A stretch of DNA of 64,000 bases from Bacteroidales bacterium (GTDB lineage: Bacteria; Bacteroidota; Bacteroidia; Bacteroidales; UBA932). The notes beneath the pieces are model-generated. The model was given only the letters and a program-made list of their open reading frames with translations, was not told the origin of the DNA and made no database searches. Of this stretch, positions 8,995 to 51,805 are shown piece after piece (the stretch's first letter is position 1; each line of letters opens with the position of its first letter). The position numbers and the translations under genes were made by a program. The stretch covers positions 1 through 64,000 of the forward strand of contig JAFUDQ010000031.1 in assembly GCA_017459075.1 (NCBI GenBank), in the 5' to 3' direction.

Positions 8995-9000
8995 GACCTT

Positions 9001-9145
9001 TCGACTTCGCTCAAGGTGACAGGGTCATTCTGATCTTTCGACTTCGCTCAAGGTGACAGGGTCATTCTGATCTTTCGACTTCGCTCAAGGTGACAGGGTC
9101 CATTCTGACCTTTCACCGTCATTCTGACCGAAGGGAAGAATCTAC
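9001..9145. repeat. Three 37-bp tandem units plus one GAATGAC-type core
   Basis: Units begin at 9001, 9038 and 9075 and share TCGACTTCGCTCAAGGTGAC; the third has a one-base insertion. A diverged extra copy at about 9118-9142 (GTCATTCTGACCGAAGGG then AAGAATC) is the widely interspersed core itself, here in the opposite reading direction, and it ends exactly at the stop codon of lspA (9142-9144). This is the only content of the gap between the SusD terminator and lspA. Confidence 0.9.
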
Positions 9146-10131: not shown

Positions 10132-13100
10132 TTATTTTGTTATCTGGATAGCTATATTGCCCTCATTCCACTCTACCTGGACAGCAGTCTCAGGTGCAGG
10201 GTCAGGAGATACGGAGTCAATCTGCGACAAGGTCTGTGAAGTGACATAGTCGTAGAACAAATCTACTGCCGATGCAATCTTGAAGAACTCGTCTCCGGTT
10301 GCGAAGATTGTAACCTTTACGCGGTCCGTAACCTCAAAGCCGCTGTCCTTGCGGACATTCTGGATGCGGTTAACAATCTCACGGGCGATACCTTCGCTGC
10401 GAAGCTCGTCCGTTAGCGTAATATCAAGGGCCACAGTAAGCTGGCCTTCCGTTGCAACTGCCCAGCCCGGCATATCTTCTGAACTGATTTCATAGTCACC
10501 GGGATTCAGTACAACATCACGGCCAGGGAGAGAAACAGTATAAGCGATTCCTGCAACATCGGCCTTCTGTATAGCGGCGATATCGGCCTGGGAGAAGCCT
10601 CCGAAGGCGGCGGCAATCTCTTTCATCTGCTTGCCGTAAATCTTTCCAAGGGTCTTGAAATTGGGCTTTATCTTAAGGGTGATGATGCCGACGGTGTCGG
10701 AAATGAACTCCATCTCCTTAACATTGACTTCTGTAAGAATGAGCTGGCGGGCACCTTCAAGCTGCTCGCGAACCTTCTCTGAAATCACAGGGATAACCAC
10801 TTTTGCAAGCGGCTGGCGTACGTTCAGATGGTTCACCTTACGCAGGGAGTGAATAAGTGAACAAGCCTTCTGGGCCACTGCCATACGGTCTTCAAGGCCT
10901 GCGTCTATCATGGAAGCATCGGCCTCAGGCATAAGGGTCAGATGAACGGATTCTTCGCTTCGCTCAGAATGACAAGGGGCGGTGAGGTCGCGGTAGAGCT
11001 GGTCCATATAGAACGGAGCAATAGGAGAAGCCAACACTGCCACCTTCACCAAAACCTCATACAGGGTCTGGTAAGCGGCATCTTTGTCAAGGGACTTCTC
11101 GCTGCCCCAGAAACGCTTGCGGTTAAGGCGGACGTACCAGTTACTAAGCTCGTCGCACACGAAGTCCTGGATAAGGCGGCCGGCAGTTGTGATGTCGTAG
11201 TCCTCATAAGAGGCGCGTACGTCACGCACAAGTGAATTGAGCTTGGAGAGTATCCAGCGGTCAATTTCCGGACGCTTGGCGGCGGGAACAGCCTCTGCTG
11301 AAGGGTCAAAGCCGTCTATGTTGGCATACTGTGCAAACAGCTTGTAAGTGTTGAACAGTGTGCCGAAGAATTTGCGGCGAACCTCGTCTACACCGGCCTC
11401 GTCAAAACGGAGGTTGTCCCAAGGCTGGGCGTTTGTAAGCATGTACCAGCGGAGGGCGTCTGCACCGTATTTGTCAAGGGCGTAGAACGGGTCTACGGCA
11501 TTGCCAAGACGCTTACTCATCTTGTTGCCGTCCTTGTCAAGTACCAGGCCGTTGGAAATTACGCGTTTGAAAGCGGGAGTTCCGCTAATCATCGTATGTA
11601 TAGCATGGAGGGTATAGAACCAGCCACGAGTCTGGTCAACGCCCTCTGCAATAAAGTCTGCGGTAGCGCCGAAGCCCTTTCCATCAAGGCCGCGGAGGCC
11701 TTCCTGAGCGTAAGGCATTGCGCCTGAGTCAAACCATACGTCAATAAGGTCTGTCTCACGAGTCATCTTCTTTCCGGAATCGGAAACAAGGAAGATATTG
11801 TCTACGTAAGGACGGTGAAGGTCTATCTTGTTGTAGTTCTCAAGGCTCATGTCCTCCGGGTCAAAACCTTTGGCTTTGAAGGGGTTGGACTGCATTACGC
11901 CGGCTGCAACAGCCTTCTCTATCTCATTGTACAGTTCTTTTACGCTGCCGATGCATTTTTCTTCCTTGCCGTCTTCTGTGCGCCAGATGGGAAGCGGAGT
12001 GCCCCAGTAGCGGCTACGGGAGAGGTTCCAGTCCTGGATGTTCTCCAGCCACTGTCCGAAGCGGCCTGTTCCGGTGGATGCCGGCTTCCAGGTAATCTGC
12101 TTGTTCAGTTCCACCATCTGCTCCTTTACCGCCGATGCCTTTATGAACCAGGCGTCAAGGGGGAAGTAAAGGACGGGCTTGTCCGTACGCCAGCTGTGAG
12201 GATAGCTGTGCACGTGCTTCTGAATCTTGAATGCACGGCCATCGGCCTTCATCATCATGCAAAGGTCAACATCAAGGGTGGTGGCGTCTGCGGGCAGGCT
12301 GTCATCGAAGGCGTTCTTAACATATCTGCCGGCGAACTCTTTGTAAGAGTCTGCTACATTGGTCTTTACGTATGAAGGGTCAAGGTCTTCAAGGCGATAG
12401 AAGCGGCCGCTGCGGTCTACCTGAGCCTGCGGCTTGCCGTCGCGGTCAAGGACCATCATCGGAGGAATGCCATAGTTGGCGGCTACCTTCTTGTCATCTG
12501 CACCAAAGGTGGGGGCGATGTGAACGACACCGGTACCATCTTCGATGGTGACATAGTCTCCAAGGATAACCCTGAAAGCATCGCCCTCAAGCGGCTTGAA
12601 CCAAGGAATAAGCTGCTGGTAACGGATGCCAAGCAGGTCTTTGCCCTTGAATTTGCCGTCAAGTACTTTGTAAGGAACCAGCTTGTCACCGGGCTTGTAA
12701 TCCTCCGGCTTAAGCTCTGCGGCCTTGGGGTTGAACATGGTAGAAACCAGTTTCTCTGCCATTACGTATATTGCCTCCTGGCCCGAATAAGGGTTGAAGG
12801 AGCGTACGCGTACATAGTCAATCTCCGGACCTACGCAGAGGGCGGTGTTTGAAGGAAGGGTCCAGGGAGTTGTGGTCCATGCCAGGAAATATACGGGAAG
12901 GGTCTCAGTACCATAAAGGGGCTGGGATTTTTCATCCTTAATAACCTCGAACTGGCAGGTTGCGGTGGTATCGGTAACATCTTTATAACAGCCGGGCTGG
13001 TTCAGCTCATGGGAGCTGAGGCCGGTACCGTCTGAAGGAGAATACGGCTGGATGGAGAATCCTTTGTAAAGGAGTCCCTTGTCATAAATCTTCTTAAGCA

Positions 13101-13581
13101 GGTACCACAGGGTTTCAATAAACCTGTTGTCGTAGGTGATGTAAGGGTCATTCATGTCTACCCAGTAGCCTACGCGCTCTGTCATGTTCACCCATTCCTT
13201 GGTGTATTTCATGACTTCCTTGCGACAGGTGTCGTTGTACTCTTCTACCGATATGGTTTTGCCGATATCTTCCTTATGTATTCCGAGCTTCTTTTCTACG
13301 CCGATTTCTACAGGCAGTCCGTGGGTATCCCAACCGGCCCTTCTTGCGACTTTGTAGCCAGTCTGGGTTTTGTAACGGCAGATTGCATCCTTGATGGAGC
13401 GGGCCATTACGTGATGGATGCCGGGCATTCCGTTGGCGGAAGGCGGTCCTTCAAAGAAAATGAACTCCGGGGCGCCTTCCCTGATGCGAAGGGACTGCCC
13501 GAAGGCATCCTCTTTTTTCCACTGCTCCAGGACATCTGCTCCGACGCCCACCAAATCAAGACCTTTATACTCTTTGAACAT
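10132..13581 (-). CDS. ileS: Isoleucyl-tRNA synthetase
   Basis: 1,149 residues, class I synthetase charging tRNA-Ile. Visible landmarks are the HIGH-type motif in PSANGMPGIHH (about residue 48-57), the editing domain with WTTTPWTLPSNTALCVG, the EGVDQTRGWFYTL segment, and KMSKRLGNA (about residue 688). The EGVDQTRGWFYTL wording and the lack of a C-terminal zinc-binding cysteine set point to the IleRS2 (eukaryote-like) type, which in other species tolerates mupirocin; that phenotype is an inference. A nine-residue stretch (CHSERSEES, about residues 868-876) in the anticodon-binding part is encoded by an interspersed repeat rather than by family sequence. First gene of the operon with the DksA-like gene and lspA. 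Confidence 0.97.
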   Translation of the reverse strand: MFKEYKGLDLVGVGADVLEQWKKEDAFGQSLRIREGAPEFIFFEGPPSANGMPGIHHVMARSIKDAICRYKTQTGYKVARRAGWDTHGLPVEIGVEKKLGIHKEDIGKTISVEEYNDTCRKEVMKYTKEWVNMTERVGYWVDMNDPYITYDNRFIETLWYLLKKIYDKGLLYKGFSIQPYSPSDGTGLSSHELNQPGCYKDVTDTTATCQFEVIKDEKSQPLYGTETLPVYFLAWTTTPWTLPSNTALCVGPEIDYVRVRSFNPYSGQEAIYVMAEKLVSTMFNPKAAELKPEDYKPGDKLVPYKVLDGKFKGKDLLGIRYQQLIPWFKPLEGDAFRVILGDYVTIEDGTGVVHIAPTFGADDKKVAANYGIPPMMVLDRDGKPQAQVDRSGRFYRLEDLDPSYVKTNVADSYKEFAGRYVKNAFDDSLPADATTLDVDLCMMMKADGRAFKIQKHVHSYPHSWRTDKPVLYFPLDAWFIKASAVKEQMVELNKQITWKPASTGTGRFGQWLENIQDWNLSRSRYWGTPLPIWRTEDGKEEKCIGSVKELYNEIEKAVAAGVMQSNPFKAKGFDPEDMSLENYNKIDLHRPYVDNIFLVSDSGKKMTRETDLIDVWFDSGAMPYAQEGLRGLDGKGFGATADFIAEGVDQTRGWFYTLHAIHTMISGTPAFKRVISNGLVLDKDGNKMSKRLGNAVDPFYALDKYGADALRWYMLTNAQPWDNLRFDEAGVDEVRRKFFGTLFNTYKLFAQYANIDGFDPSAEAVPAAKRPEIDRWILSKLNSLVRDVRASYEDYDITTAGRLIQDFVCDELSNWYVRLNRKRFWGSEKSLDKDAAYQTLYEVLVKVAVLASPIAPFYMDQLYRDLTAPCHSERSEESVHLTLMPEADASMIDAGLEDRMAVAQKACSLIHSLRKVNHLNVRQPLAKVVIPVISEKVREQLEGARQLILTEVNVKEMEFISDTVGIITLKIKPNFKTLGKIYGKQMKEIAAAFGGFSQADIAAIQKADVAGIAYTVSLPGRDVVLNPGDYEISSEDMPGWAVATEGQLTVALDITLTDELRSEGIAREIVNRIQNVRKDSGFEVTDRVKVTIFATGDEFFKIASAVDLFYDYVTSQTLSQIDSVSPDPAPETAVQVEWNEGNIAIQITK
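10946..10975. repeat. Interspersed GAATGAC repeat inside ileS
   Basis: GATTCTTCGCTTCGCTCAG followed by AATGACAAGG is translated on the minus strand as CHSERSEES, in frame, within the C-terminal anticodon-binding region of IleRS. The same DNA core occurs outside genes in this window, so this is a repeat that has entered a coding region without breaking it. Confidence 0.88.
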
Positions 13582-17103: not shown

Positions 17104-17132
17104 CAGGTGCAAAAGAGCGTGTTTTGCACCTG
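17104..17132. repeat. Palindromic repeat, CAGGTGCAAAA type, copy 1
   Basis: CAGGTGCAAAA at 17104-17114 and TTTTGCACCTG at 17122-17132 form a perfect 11-bp stem with a seven-base loop. The same hairpin recurs 25 bases away, at the 3' end of ribF, and twice near 33.2 kb. It has no T-run, so it is not a canonical terminator. Confidence 0.85.
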
Positions 17133-17146
17133 AGGACATTGTTTTT

Positions 17147-18271
17147 TCACCCTCGCGGTGCAAAAGAGGCGTTTTTGCACCTCTGTTCATCCTGAATCAG
17201 CTGAGCCTTAAGCTCTTCCATGCTGGCGAACTTGCGCTCTTCGCGGATTCGGCGACGGAAGGTTATAGTGATATCCAGTCCGTAAATATCCTCGTTGAAA
17301 TCAAAGATGTTGGTTTCTATGGTAAGACCGTTTGCAGCACCCACAGTAGGTCTTACGCCGATGTTGCACATACCCTGACAGCATCGCCCAAGTACCTGTA
17401 CATCAACGGCATAGACGCCGCCGGCAGGTACCAGTTTCAGCGGTTCATACAGCTTCATATTGGCCGTCGGGAAGCCGATGGTCCGGCCCAGCTGGTTCCC
17501 GGCCACCACCACCCCGTGGAGTCCGTAGCCATATCCCAGCATAGCATTGGCCGTCTCTACATCCCCCTCCATCAGCGCATTACGTATTTGCGTGGAGGAG
17601 ATACGTTCGACTCGCTTCGCTCGCTCAGTATGACAATAAGAAGCGGCTGGCGACTCGATAGGACAAAGGGAAGCGGCTGGCGACTCGATAGGACAAAGGG
17701 AAGAGTCTGGAGATTCGGTAGGACAAAGAGAAGAGTTTGGCGATTCGGTAGGACAAAAGGAGGGGTCTGTTTGCTGGTGGAGGGTAGTCCCCTGAAAATT
17801 GTGCCACCCTCGGCAGCATAAGAGGGAGGGGCCCGCAGCCGAAGGCTGTGGGAGGGGCCGAAGCGAAGCGGAGGCATTTTCAGAGGAGTAGCCCTCCGCC
17901 AGCAAGTCACTGAACGTCCGGCGATCGCTGCCAATGCGGTTATCGTAGCCCATCACAACCAGCGAAGCTCCATAACGGTCCCGGAGCATATCAAGATACT
18001 CCCGGGCCGTCATCGCCGCAAATTCACGGGTAAAACTAAGAACCTCAACCCTGTCAACCCCGGCCGCAAGAAGCAAAGCCTTCTTCTCCTCAAGGGAACT
18101 CAGCAGCCTAAGCTCCCTGGCATCCTGCTGCAGAACCGTCCTCGGATGCGGCCAAAACGTAACAACGACAGCCTCCTCCCCCCTTTCACGGGCAGAGGAG
18201 ACCACCGTCTCAAGCAAGTGGCGGTGCCCAAGATGGACACCGTCAAAAAAACCTGTTGTAACTACAGCCAT
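17147..18271 (-). CDS. ribF: Bifunctional riboflavin kinase / FAD synthetase with repeat-encoded insert
   Basis: 374 residues, about 60 more than usual. The N-terminal nucleotidyltransferase (TTGFFDGVHLGHRHLL, TFWPHPRTVL) and the C-terminal riboflavin kinase (GRTIGFPTANMKLYEP, about residues 265-280) are intact, as is the RISSTQIRNAL motif. Between residues about 127 and 223 family sequence is replaced by peptide encoded only by repeats: a 129-bp inverted-repeat element, four 30-bp tandem units (SLCPIESPAA and variants) and one GAATGAC core (CHTERAKRVERI). The last residues and the stop codon come from a palindromic repeat. The gene overlaps the upstream fusion gene by 10 bases. It makes FMN and FAD; whether it is fully active is uncertain because the insert is next to the ISST motif. 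Confidence 0.93.
   Translation of the reverse strand: MAVVTTGFFDGVHLGHRHLLETVVSSARERGEEAVVVTFWPHPRTVLQQDARELRLLSSLEEKKALLLAAGVDRVEVLSFTREFAAMTAREYLDMLRDRYGASLVVMGYDNRIGSDRRTFSDLLAEGYSSENASASLRPLPQPSAAGPSLLCCRGWHNFQGTTLHQQTDPSFCPTESPNSSLCPTESPDSSLCPIESPAASLCPIESPAASYCHTERAKRVERISSTQIRNALMEGDVETANAMLGYGYGLHGVVVAGNQLGRTIGFPTANMKLYEPLKLVPAGGVYAVDVQVLGRCCQGMCNIGVRPTVGAANGLTIETNIFDFNEDIYGLDITITFRRRIREERKFASMEELKAQLIQDEQRCKNASFAPRG
17157..17181. repeat. Palindromic repeat, CAGGTGCAAAA type, copy 2, at the ribF 3' end
   Basis: GGTGCAAAA at 17157-17165 pairs with TTTTGCACC at 17173-17181. On the minus strand it encodes the final residues of RibF (RCKNASFAP) just before the stop, so a repeat has become the C-terminus of the enzyme. 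Confidence 0.82.
17604..17760. repeat. GAATGAC-type core followed by four 30-bp tandem units inside ribF
   Basis: A core (CGTTCGACTCGCTTCGCTCG then CTCAGTATGACA) at about 17604-17634 is followed by exact 30-bp units at 17641-17670, 17671-17700, 17701-17730 and 17731-17760. The first two are identical and the others drift, as if the array grows from the core side. Each unit adds ten residues in frame, so copy-number change would lengthen RibF without a frameshift. Confidence 0.92.
17774..17902. mobile_element. Small inverted-repeat element inside ribF (MITE-like)
   Basis: An outer arm (CTGGTGGAGGGTAGTCC... at 17774-17799) pairs with 17876-17902 with a few mismatches, and an inner palindrome GCCCGCAGCC-GAA-GGCTGTGGG sits near 17831-17853. 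The element, about 129 bp, could fold as one long hairpin. It is translated as part of RibF (includes RPLPQPSAAGPSLL). It has no coding capacity of its own; the mobile nature is inferred from the terminal inverted repeats and its place inside a conserved gene. Confidence 0.6.
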
Positions 18272-27007: not shown

Positions 27008-27127
27008 CTAAATATTAACTACGTGACCAATAATTATTTTGCCTTTAACGATTTTGTTACAATCAAAGTTTAACTCTTTGAATACATGTTTGCAAAGATA
27101 CAAAGTATAATCCATAAAGCAATTTTT

Positions 27128-27199
27128 TGTTTTTTCTTGATTGTTTTTTCTTGATTGTTTTTTCTTGATTGTTTTTTCTTGATTGTTTTTTCTTGATTT
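27128..27199. repeat. 14-bp tandem repeat upstream of the serpin gene
   Basis: Four perfect units of CTTGATTGTTTTTT start at 27136, 27150, 27164 and 27178, with partial copies on both sides. Perfect identity and a short T-rich unit make slipped-strand copy change likely. The last unit places a near -33 element (ATTG, 27182-27185) 19 bases from the -7 box of the serpin gene. Confidence 0.93.
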
Positions 27200-50392: not shown

Positions 50393-51805
50393 ATGCTAAA
50401 AAAAATCAGAATCATCCTGGCGACGCTTGTTTTCATCGCCTTCTTGCTTCTTTTCATTAACCCGTGGGAAGGAGCTCCCTTGCAGCTAAGCTTCCTGGCC
50501 AAATGGCAGTTCCTGCCGGCCTTGCTGGCGTTCAACCTTGTGGTTATTGCCGTTCTTATCGTGCTAACCCTGCTCTTCGGGCGAATCTACTGCTCTGTCC
50601 TCTGCCCTCTTGGCATCCTGCAAGATATCGCAGGACGCCTGGGACGCATCGGCAAAAAGAAGAAGATGCGCTACACGCCTTCCAAAGAGAAGAAGGTTCG
50701 CTATATAGTTTGGGTAGTCTTCGTGGCAAGCCTTATCGCAGGCCTCAACTACCTGGTTGTCCTGCTTGACCCTTACGGCCTATTTGGCAAGATGATGGCT
50801 TCTGCAAGCGGCAAATTTGTTGGTTCACTTGTGCCGATTGTAGCTATTGCAGCCTTTGTTATCATTGCCGTACTGGCATGGAGGAACGGGCGCACCTGGT
50901 GCAATACCATCTGCCCTGTGGGCACTACGCTGGGCATTTTCTCCCGCTTCGCCCTCTTCCGCCCCGTTATCAATGCCGATGCCTGCAAGAATTGCCACGC
51001 CTGTGAGAAGAAGTGCAAGGCTTCCTGCATTGACATTGCCGCTAAGAAGATTGATTACAGCCGCTGCGTAGACTGCTTCGACTGTCTTGATAACTGCAAG
51101 TTCGGTGCGCTTAAGTATAAATTCGCATATAAAGGAGATTCTTCCGCTCCACTTCGTTCCGGACAGAATGACAATTCCGGCCGCCGCGCCTTCCTGGCAT
51201 CATCGGCAATGATAGCCAGCGCAGCGACCCTGGGAGCGCAGAAAAAGAAGGTAGACGGAGGCCTGGCCGCCATCCTGGACAAGGAGGTACCGCAAAGGAC
51301 AACGCCCCTTACCCCCTTCGGTTCAGAGAGCGTCAAGGATTTCTATAAGAAGTGCGTAGCCTGCCAGCTTTGCGTATCAGCCTGCCCCAACAATGTACTC
51401 AGGCCCTCTACAGACCTTGACCGCCTGATGCAGCCGGAGATGAGCTACGAAAAAGGCTACTGCCGCCCGGAATGTACAGAATGCTCACAGGTCTGCCCCG
51501 CCGGAGCGATTCTGCCTCTTACCCCTGAGGAAAAGACCCAGTTCCATATTGGCGTTGCAAGCGTGAACCGCGACCTCTGCGTAGTTGAGGCAGATGGCGT
51601 CAAGTGCGGTAATTGCGCCCGTCACTGCCCTGTAGGAGCCATCATGATGGTTCCCAAGGACCGCGAAGACCCTGAAAACAGCCCGCTTATTCCTGTTGTA
51701 GACGAAGCCAAGTGTATTGGCTGCGGCGCCTGCGAGAATCTGTGCCCGGCAAGGCCGTTCAGCGCAATTACAGTTAACGGACTCAGTGTTCACATTAAAG
51801 ATTAG
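50393..51805 (+). CDS. Membrane polyferredoxin (NapH-like plus NapG-like halves)
   Basis: 470 residues. The N-terminal half is NapH/CcoG-like: four membrane segments with YCSVLCPLG and WCNTICPVGTT, then 4Fe-4S motifs CKNCHACEKKC and CVDCFDCLDNC. After residue about 255 a second, NapG-like ferredoxin half begins with an internal Tat-like segment (GRRAFLASSAMIASAATLG) followed by CVACQLCVSACP, CTECSQVCP, CGNCARHCP and CIGCGACENLCP. It likely passes electrons from quinol to a periplasmic reductase. Residues about 249-256 (DSSAPLRSGQND) are encoded by a GAATGAC-type repeat between the two halves. It is 21 bases after the pyrophosphokinase gene and six bases before an Fe-S aldo/keto reductase, a plausible partner. 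Confidence 0.9.
   Translation: MLKKIRIILATLVFIAFLLLFINPWEGAPLQLSFLAKWQFLPALLAFNLVVIAVLIVLTLLFGRIYCSVLCPLGILQDIAGRLGRIGKKKKMRYTPSKEKKVRYIVWVVFVASLIAGLNYLVVLLDPYGLFGKMMASASGKFVGSLVPIVAIAAFVIIAVLAWRNGRTWCNTICPVGTTLGIFSRFALFRPVINADACKNCHACEKKCKASCIDIAAKKIDYSRCVDCFDCLDNCKFGALKYKFAYKGDSSAPLRSGQNDNSGRRAFLASSAMIASAATLGAQKKKVDGGLAAILDKEVPQRTTPLTPFGSESVKDFYKKCVACQLCVSACPNNVLRPSTDLDRLMQPEMSYEKGYCRPECTECSQVCPAGAILPLTPEEKTQFHIGVASVNRDLCVVEADGVKCGNCARHCPVGAIMMVPKDREDPENSPLIPVVDEAKCIGCGACENLCPARPFSAITVNGLSVHIKD
51138..51180. repeat. Interspersed GAATGAC repeat inside the polyferredoxin gene
   Basis: GGAGATTCTTCCGCTCCACT followed by TCGTTCCGGACAGAATGACA is a longer variant of the core seen inside ileS, here read in the opposite direction. 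It falls at the junction of the NapH-like and NapG-like halves and keeps the frame. Confidence 0.85.

Follow-up and report, generated by a model that had tools for sequence, protein, structure and literature searches.

The window analysed here, 64,000 nucleotides of one contig from a Bacteroidales genome (GenBank GCA_017459075.1; a metagenome-like draft of 2.3 Mb in 53 contigs with 8.16% contamination), encodes a bifunctional riboflavin kinase/FMN adenylyltransferase, RibF, with a segment composed of DNA repeats between its two catalytic modules. The locus raises the question of how a core enzyme comes to contain such a segment, and whether the event is peculiar to this gene.

A repeat-made segment in RibF

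The RibF protein contains the Pfam domains FAD_syn (residues 2–126) and Flavokinase (residues 245–367), and its PDB relatives have E values from 5e-46 to 2e-9. Three motifs of the FMN adenylyltransferase module, HxGH, Gx(D/N) and SSTxxR, are described in PMC3509593; all are present here, and alignment A1, with 52 RibF sequences, shows no variation at the residues that they name. With both domains and all three motifs, the protein qualifies as a RibF. It has the two modules and the three motifs in common with the bacterial bifunctional FAD synthetases 3op1, 2x0k and 1mrz, but the distance between its second and third motifs is about three times the usual one. A search of the 2.3-Mb draft genome, made with no insert-derived peptide, found no second RibF; ribF thus encodes a single-copy core enzyme.

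An earlier note on this DNA had described an in-frame, repeat-made insert of about 95 residues between the modules. The open frame, the Pfam assignments and the repeat searches bear this out, and the figure of about 95 counts the residues made of repeats; the net gain over a normal RibF, however, is about 75 residues, because some of the normal loop has been lost. The component features are collected in Table 1. The inverted-repeat element, previously put at 129 bp, was confirmed at a somewhat greater length. Its DNA fold has a z score of −4.47, with none of 200 shuffles equally stable, and positions 17768–17908 are matched in 29 of 41 genus genomes, the source genome counted. The end of the repetitive extragenic palindromic (REP) hairpin, which in ribF reads ATCTCC, overlaps the conserved I-S codons of the sequence ISST. 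In the 30-bp array, the repeat search and the codon table agree with the earlier description of two identical units, which are those proximal to the REP, and of others that drift; to call four units exact was too strong for the copy number and match rate that we obtained.

Repeats also reach the 3′ end of the gene. The palindrome GGTGCAAAA..TTTTGCACC, part of a repeat with 51-bp spacing, encodes the last ten residues, CKNASFAPRG, and the stop codon lies in the repeat spacer. The statement that the C-terminus is made only of repeats holds for these ten residues and the stop codon and is overstated beyond them. Because the palindrome pattern occurs at 13 places in the genome, compared with none for the reversed pattern, and because the longer element recurs in so many genus genomes, we regard the ribF repeats as real rather than as chance matches.

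Table 1. Positions in the window of ribF, its repeat-derived parts and a further in-frame REP
Feature	Position	Strand	Basis
ribF, bifunctional riboflavin kinase/FMN adenylyltransferase, 374 aa	17147..18271	-	single open frame; Pfam; PDB relatives
Repeat-made insert, ~aa 123–222, between the Gx(D/N) and SSTxxR motifs	17606..17905	-	codon table; alignment with relatives
Inverted-repeat element, 137 nt	~17770..17906	-	DNA fold; matches in genus genomes
30-bp tandem array, 4.1 copies, 89% matches	17640..17761	-	TRF; repeat search
REP hairpin, TGTC start	~17597..17636	-	read from sequence
Palindrome GGTGCAAAA..TTTTGCACC, within ribF 3′ end	17157..17182	-	repeat search; 13 genome places
Second copy of the palindrome, 51 bp on, just downstream of ribF	17105..17130	.	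repeat search
Single in-frame REP (CHSERSEES) in class I tRNA synthetase gene 10132–13581	10945..10974	-	Pfam tRNA-synt_1, Anticodon_1

Repeats inside other genes of the genome

A 709-kb sample of the source genome, which included the window, was annotated with a simple codon-usage caller (534 genes, ribF being entered by hand). TRF and hand curation identified 16 in-frame REP arrays in 14 genes of this sample. Eight of these genes have Pfam names: RibF, PurD, GH97, GH3, a GlcNAc 2-epimerase-like protein and a gyrase/topoisomerase IV A protein, with a SpoU methylase and a shikimate kinase that have two arrays each. The others encode TrmO, an ABC ATPase, a sugar-nucleotide dehydratase, urocanase, a THUMP-like protein and an alpha-amylase. 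Single repeat elements were found in the TruB of the source genome, in a 350-residue protein without a Pfam match and, within the window, in the class I tRNA synthetase gene of Table 1, which we read as that of IleRS. Insertion of repeats peculiar to the ribF of the window can be rejected on these grounds, and the focus of the earlier note on RibF and on ten-residue steps was too narrow for a process that is genome-wide and genus-wide. In the first 464 kb, 60 repeat elements comprised 43 intergenic copies, 13 inside called genes and 4 partly inside (ribF's own being miscalled).

The in-gene arrays have periods of 21, 24, 27 or 30, which fits the argument that a period divisible by three preserves the protein: divisibility was observed in 16 of 16 in-gene arrays, compared with 4 of 10 elsewhere (p 0.0009). 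The former count was hand-curated, with a false array at C2:139601 dropped and a variant array at C13:10240 added; the ten comparison arrays lie outside genes, one of them touching a gene edge. As a frame-breaking array would hardly be counted as in-gene, the 16 of 16 reflects selection and not a property of the mechanism.

Other repeats in the window include a REP-like in-frame stretch at about 51150–51173 in the 4Fe-4S protein gene 50393–51805, and intergenic REP arrays at 148–253 (period 21) and 8998–9114 (period 37, not divisible by three). The intergenic array at 27127–27198, with 5.1 perfect 14-bp units of TTGTTTTTTCTTGA, is unlike the REPs.

RibF among repeatedly hit genes

In a biased, insert-leaning set, repeats were detected in 28 of 71 named ribF genes and in 0 of 276 neighbouring open reading frames. 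The repeat library was taken from the source genome only, with ribF's own copies excluded, and so undercounts repeats in other genomes. Genus sets not chosen by insert, which drew on 30 of the 40 truB matches and on 24 purD loci, gave repeats in ribF (4/36), truB (6/30), purD (2/24) and neighbouring genes (2/275). When the source genome's own target genes were left out, 9 of 87 target loci contained repeats, compared with 2 of 275 neighbours (p 7e-5), TruB and PurD having been chosen as targets because the source genome has an insert there. These counts indicate that some genes are hit repeatedly, with ribF among them and not alone; the repeats in the TruB and PurD loops lead us to reject RibF as the sole hotspot.

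The RibF loop across the genus

The named relatives are uncultured Bacteroidales, many of them ruminant-derived, and include two Candidatus Cryptobacteroides. Of 131 genomes sampled evenly from the genus, the source genome among them and likewise chosen without any insert peptide, 124 had a RibF match. The match is split at the loop by 18 to 75 extra residues in 19 of these, the source included, and 12 more genomes have 7 to 14 extra loop residues, one with an internal stop. Both groups were picked from the match table by eye, and at least four of the 124 have a partial or divided gene only, so that their loop state is not assignable. The earlier note had taken one insert common to all close relatives, with normal family sequence in it, as the outcome contrary to its reading; the relatives checked are not all normal there. 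Its proposal of a repeat-driven protein that may vary between strains is upheld in part: the segment is repeat-made and in frame in a single-copy core enzyme, and, with one genome compared per species, the loop is very variable between species.

A survey of 126 ribF loci (46 + 80) yielded 117 distinct loops, from open frames only and mostly from draft genomes; the set of 80 leans to insert carriers because one search peptide came from the insert. Repeats elsewhere in 1.41 Mb of DNA were matched by 42 of the 59 in-group loops that are at least 38 residues long, and for 39 of these 42 the matches fall in three or more loci. The same comparison gave no match for any of 48 shorter in-group loops, 10 outgroup loops or 117 equally long control segments from the kinase part (the ribF records L173 and L176 having been removed from the database). 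The RibF loop is thus made of genome repeats, open and in frame, and the elements, frames and strands vary by species. The remaining 17 long loops have no match in the 1.41 Mb compared. Palindromes or internal repeats were nevertheless seen by eye in the unmatched long loops of L108, L122, L133, L120 and L144, so that further element families probably use the same site. One record, L176, is broken in the kinase part, so that an intact gene is not universal.

Element E1 occurs in 31 of the 117 loops, on the plus strand in phases 0, 1 and 2 (7, 6 and 12 loops) and on the minus strand in phases 0 and 1 (5 loops and 1 loop). Although gapped alignments underlie some of these phases, four frames are obtained from the ungapped alignments by themselves. 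Because E1 is read in at least four frames, the unit is the DNA and not a peptide, and a repeat-encoded domain with a conserved peptide is rejected. The locus L118, one of the nearest tree rows, has E1 in the same frame as the RibF of the window and lacks the 30-bp array, which suggests that in the window E1 is probably the older component and the array the younger.

Loop history and gene history

In a quick tree built without the loop, the long-loop state changes at least 11 times, with starred branches forcing 4 of the changes. The loci L124 and L125 are 96.3% and 99.0% identical in their flanks, whereas their loops are 50.8% identical (shuffled controls had a mean of 42 and reached 57.1) and are considered unrelated. 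The reverse holds for L103 and L153, two loci whose genome series bear different names: identity is 83.0% and 80.0% in the flanks and 100% over the 183 nt of the loop, with perfect identity running on for 33 and 38 nt outside it. Among 5,671 pairs (107 distinct genes), 4 combine a loop at least 96% identical with both flanks at most 92% identical, compared with 1 and 0 for two control segments; the sole pair with both flanks at least 94% identical has unrelated loops. Altogether, loop history is discordant with the flanks in five species pairs, two of which include L124. These five pairs point to short-tract recombination of loops together with fresh insertion. A repeat-like TruB loop common to three genus genomes (L237, L240 and L244) is 92–94% identical, compared with 78–92% for its flanks, a faint hint that loops may be exchanged in TruB as well.

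Origin of the loop

We consider it likely that the loop consists of selfish REP-like DNA that is tolerated at a permissive site in RibF and has spread partly by short-tract recombination. Selfish palindromic repeats, comprising REP-like hairpins, the longer inverted-repeat element and the arrays grown from them, would be scattered through these genomes, and a copy would survive if it landed in frame where a loop can accommodate additional residues. The stretch between Gx(D/N) and SSTxxR would be such a loop, its extra residues being tolerated, and probably unstructured, at the surface of a working enzyme. Exchange of loops between species would take place by homologous recombination over short tracts, with the conserved codons that flank the loop as anchors, and arrays would grow by slippage or unequal exchange, with selection retaining multiples of three. 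A more far-reaching version, which we put forward tentatively, is that the loop of this essential enzyme acts as a mobile cassette: new alleles would arise continually from palindromic repeats, and gut species would share them through very short tracts ending in the conserved flanking codons, giving the protein a vertical core and a horizontal hypervariable segment.

The loop might instead be a useful hypervariable region, in which repeats are recruited and exchanged as change is favoured, for example in regulation or in oligomer contacts. Recurrence at one RibF site across species, the sharing of loops between species and the excess of repeats in ribF over neighbouring open reading frames in the biased set speak for such a region. 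Against it stand the lack of a conserved peptide, the use of several frames and both strands, and the hits in the TruB and PurD loops; moreover, 105 of 124 genus genomes have no insert of at least 18 residues or are not assignable. Taken together, these observations make a useful region unlikely.

Still less probable is a contingency locus, in which the 30-bp array would gain and lose units within a species and so tune RibF. The identity of two units and a period that is a multiple of three are in keeping with this idea, and in L106 the corresponding loop holds an array of its own, with 21-bp units (CHSEHSY). Most long loops surveyed show no array, however, and REP arrays are also intergenic. 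The ten-residue steps foreseen in the earlier note are outdone by the larger changes actually seen, whole-loop replacement and loop sharing between species. Mis-joining of repeats into ribF during assembly or binning, which the fragmented and contaminated draft might invite, is very improbable given many independent records with inserts at the same loop, in frame and with correct ribF on both sides. Equally remote is removal of the insert from RNA or protein, or its skipping by the ribosome: strong hairpins would suit it, yet inserts would then have no need to be open and in frame, as the repeat-bearing loops that we found are, although a survey of open frames only would miss broken copies.

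Relation to known intragenic repeats

The tolerated-repeat reading places the RibF case beside two known systems. In PMC3733652 (2013), REPs of the GTAG and CGTC classes are reported in frame inside conserved genes, in clusters encoding 43–82 residues; they occur in the TruB genes of three bacteria, RPE-1 lies in the TruB gene of Rickettsia conorii, the recB genes of two Xanthomonas are hit at about the same site, and CGTC REPs generally have no dedicated transposase. The repeats described here resemble those in being in-frame palindromes in conserved genes, in targeting TruB and in flanking neither of the two Y1 transposase genes of the source genome. They differ in three respects: across many species the RibF loop is occupied by different elements, read in several frames; tandem arrays preserve the frame; and loops are swapped or shared against gene history. 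Rickettsia palindromic elements (RPEs) are described in the review PMC10969869 as elements about 150 bp long that have entered many unrelated genes in frame and encode a conserved peptide. The in-frame insertion into protein genes is matched here; the conserved encoded peptide is not, E1 being read in several frames.

Our literature search found no work joining riboflavin kinase, insertion and repetitive extragenic palindromic sequences, although the RibF case may still have been published. We regard this case as a variant of known intragenic REP and RPE insertion, set apart by one loop with many species, elements and frames. Intragenic REPs and RPEs have so far been known as scattered cases, whereas the RibF loop offers a replicated natural experiment, with different elements in several frames at one site in many species. 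It makes testable the idea of selfish repeats as a source of new protein segments, as well as the amount of arbitrary sequence that an essential fold tolerates. The case also bears on annotation: a peptide such as CHSERSEES can derive from a repeat, and where housekeeping enzymes of these bacteria differ in length, a new domain is not necessarily the reason.

The repeat family and a candidate mobiliser

Two consensus patterns recovered 38 and 5 REP copies from the 709-kb sample. The first base of the tag is T in 41 of the 43 copies and C in 2, the search pattern itself having fixed GTCATT. Inspection by eye gives a stem of ATTTC..CCG paired with CGG..GAAAT that encloses a loop of 3, whereas the predicted RNA fold of the consensus differed. 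The copies end in CTC or CTA, the pattern having required TCT followed by C or A. REPs of the CGTC class were defined by an unpaired CGTC tag (often TGTC or CCTC), a stem of 8–9 bp starting with AT, a loop of 4–5 and an unpaired tail that is mostly CCA; the REP of the window resembles this class, on a comparison in which the search pattern fixed most of the tag, stem and tail.

Y1 transposase genes are present in 31 of 41 genus genomes. The 350 bp to either side of the two Y1_Tnp genes of the source genome (on one side of L206, the 165 bp up to the end of the sequence) contain no copy of the REP; upstream of one gene there are two bare TGTCA matches, at distances of 256 and 327 bp. For these two genes, the result agrees with CGTC REPs, in which no transposase gene is flanked by the repeat, and departs, in the source genome, from RAYT-mobilised REPs, in which a transposase gene is flanked by the same REP. 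A Y1/RAYT transposase as the mobiliser is accordingly not supported by the source genome's two Y1 genes. These genes, L206 and L207, are flanked by another palindrome family, approximately TTCATAAGATTCGTAAAAA, which by eye is akin to the arrays of contig C18.
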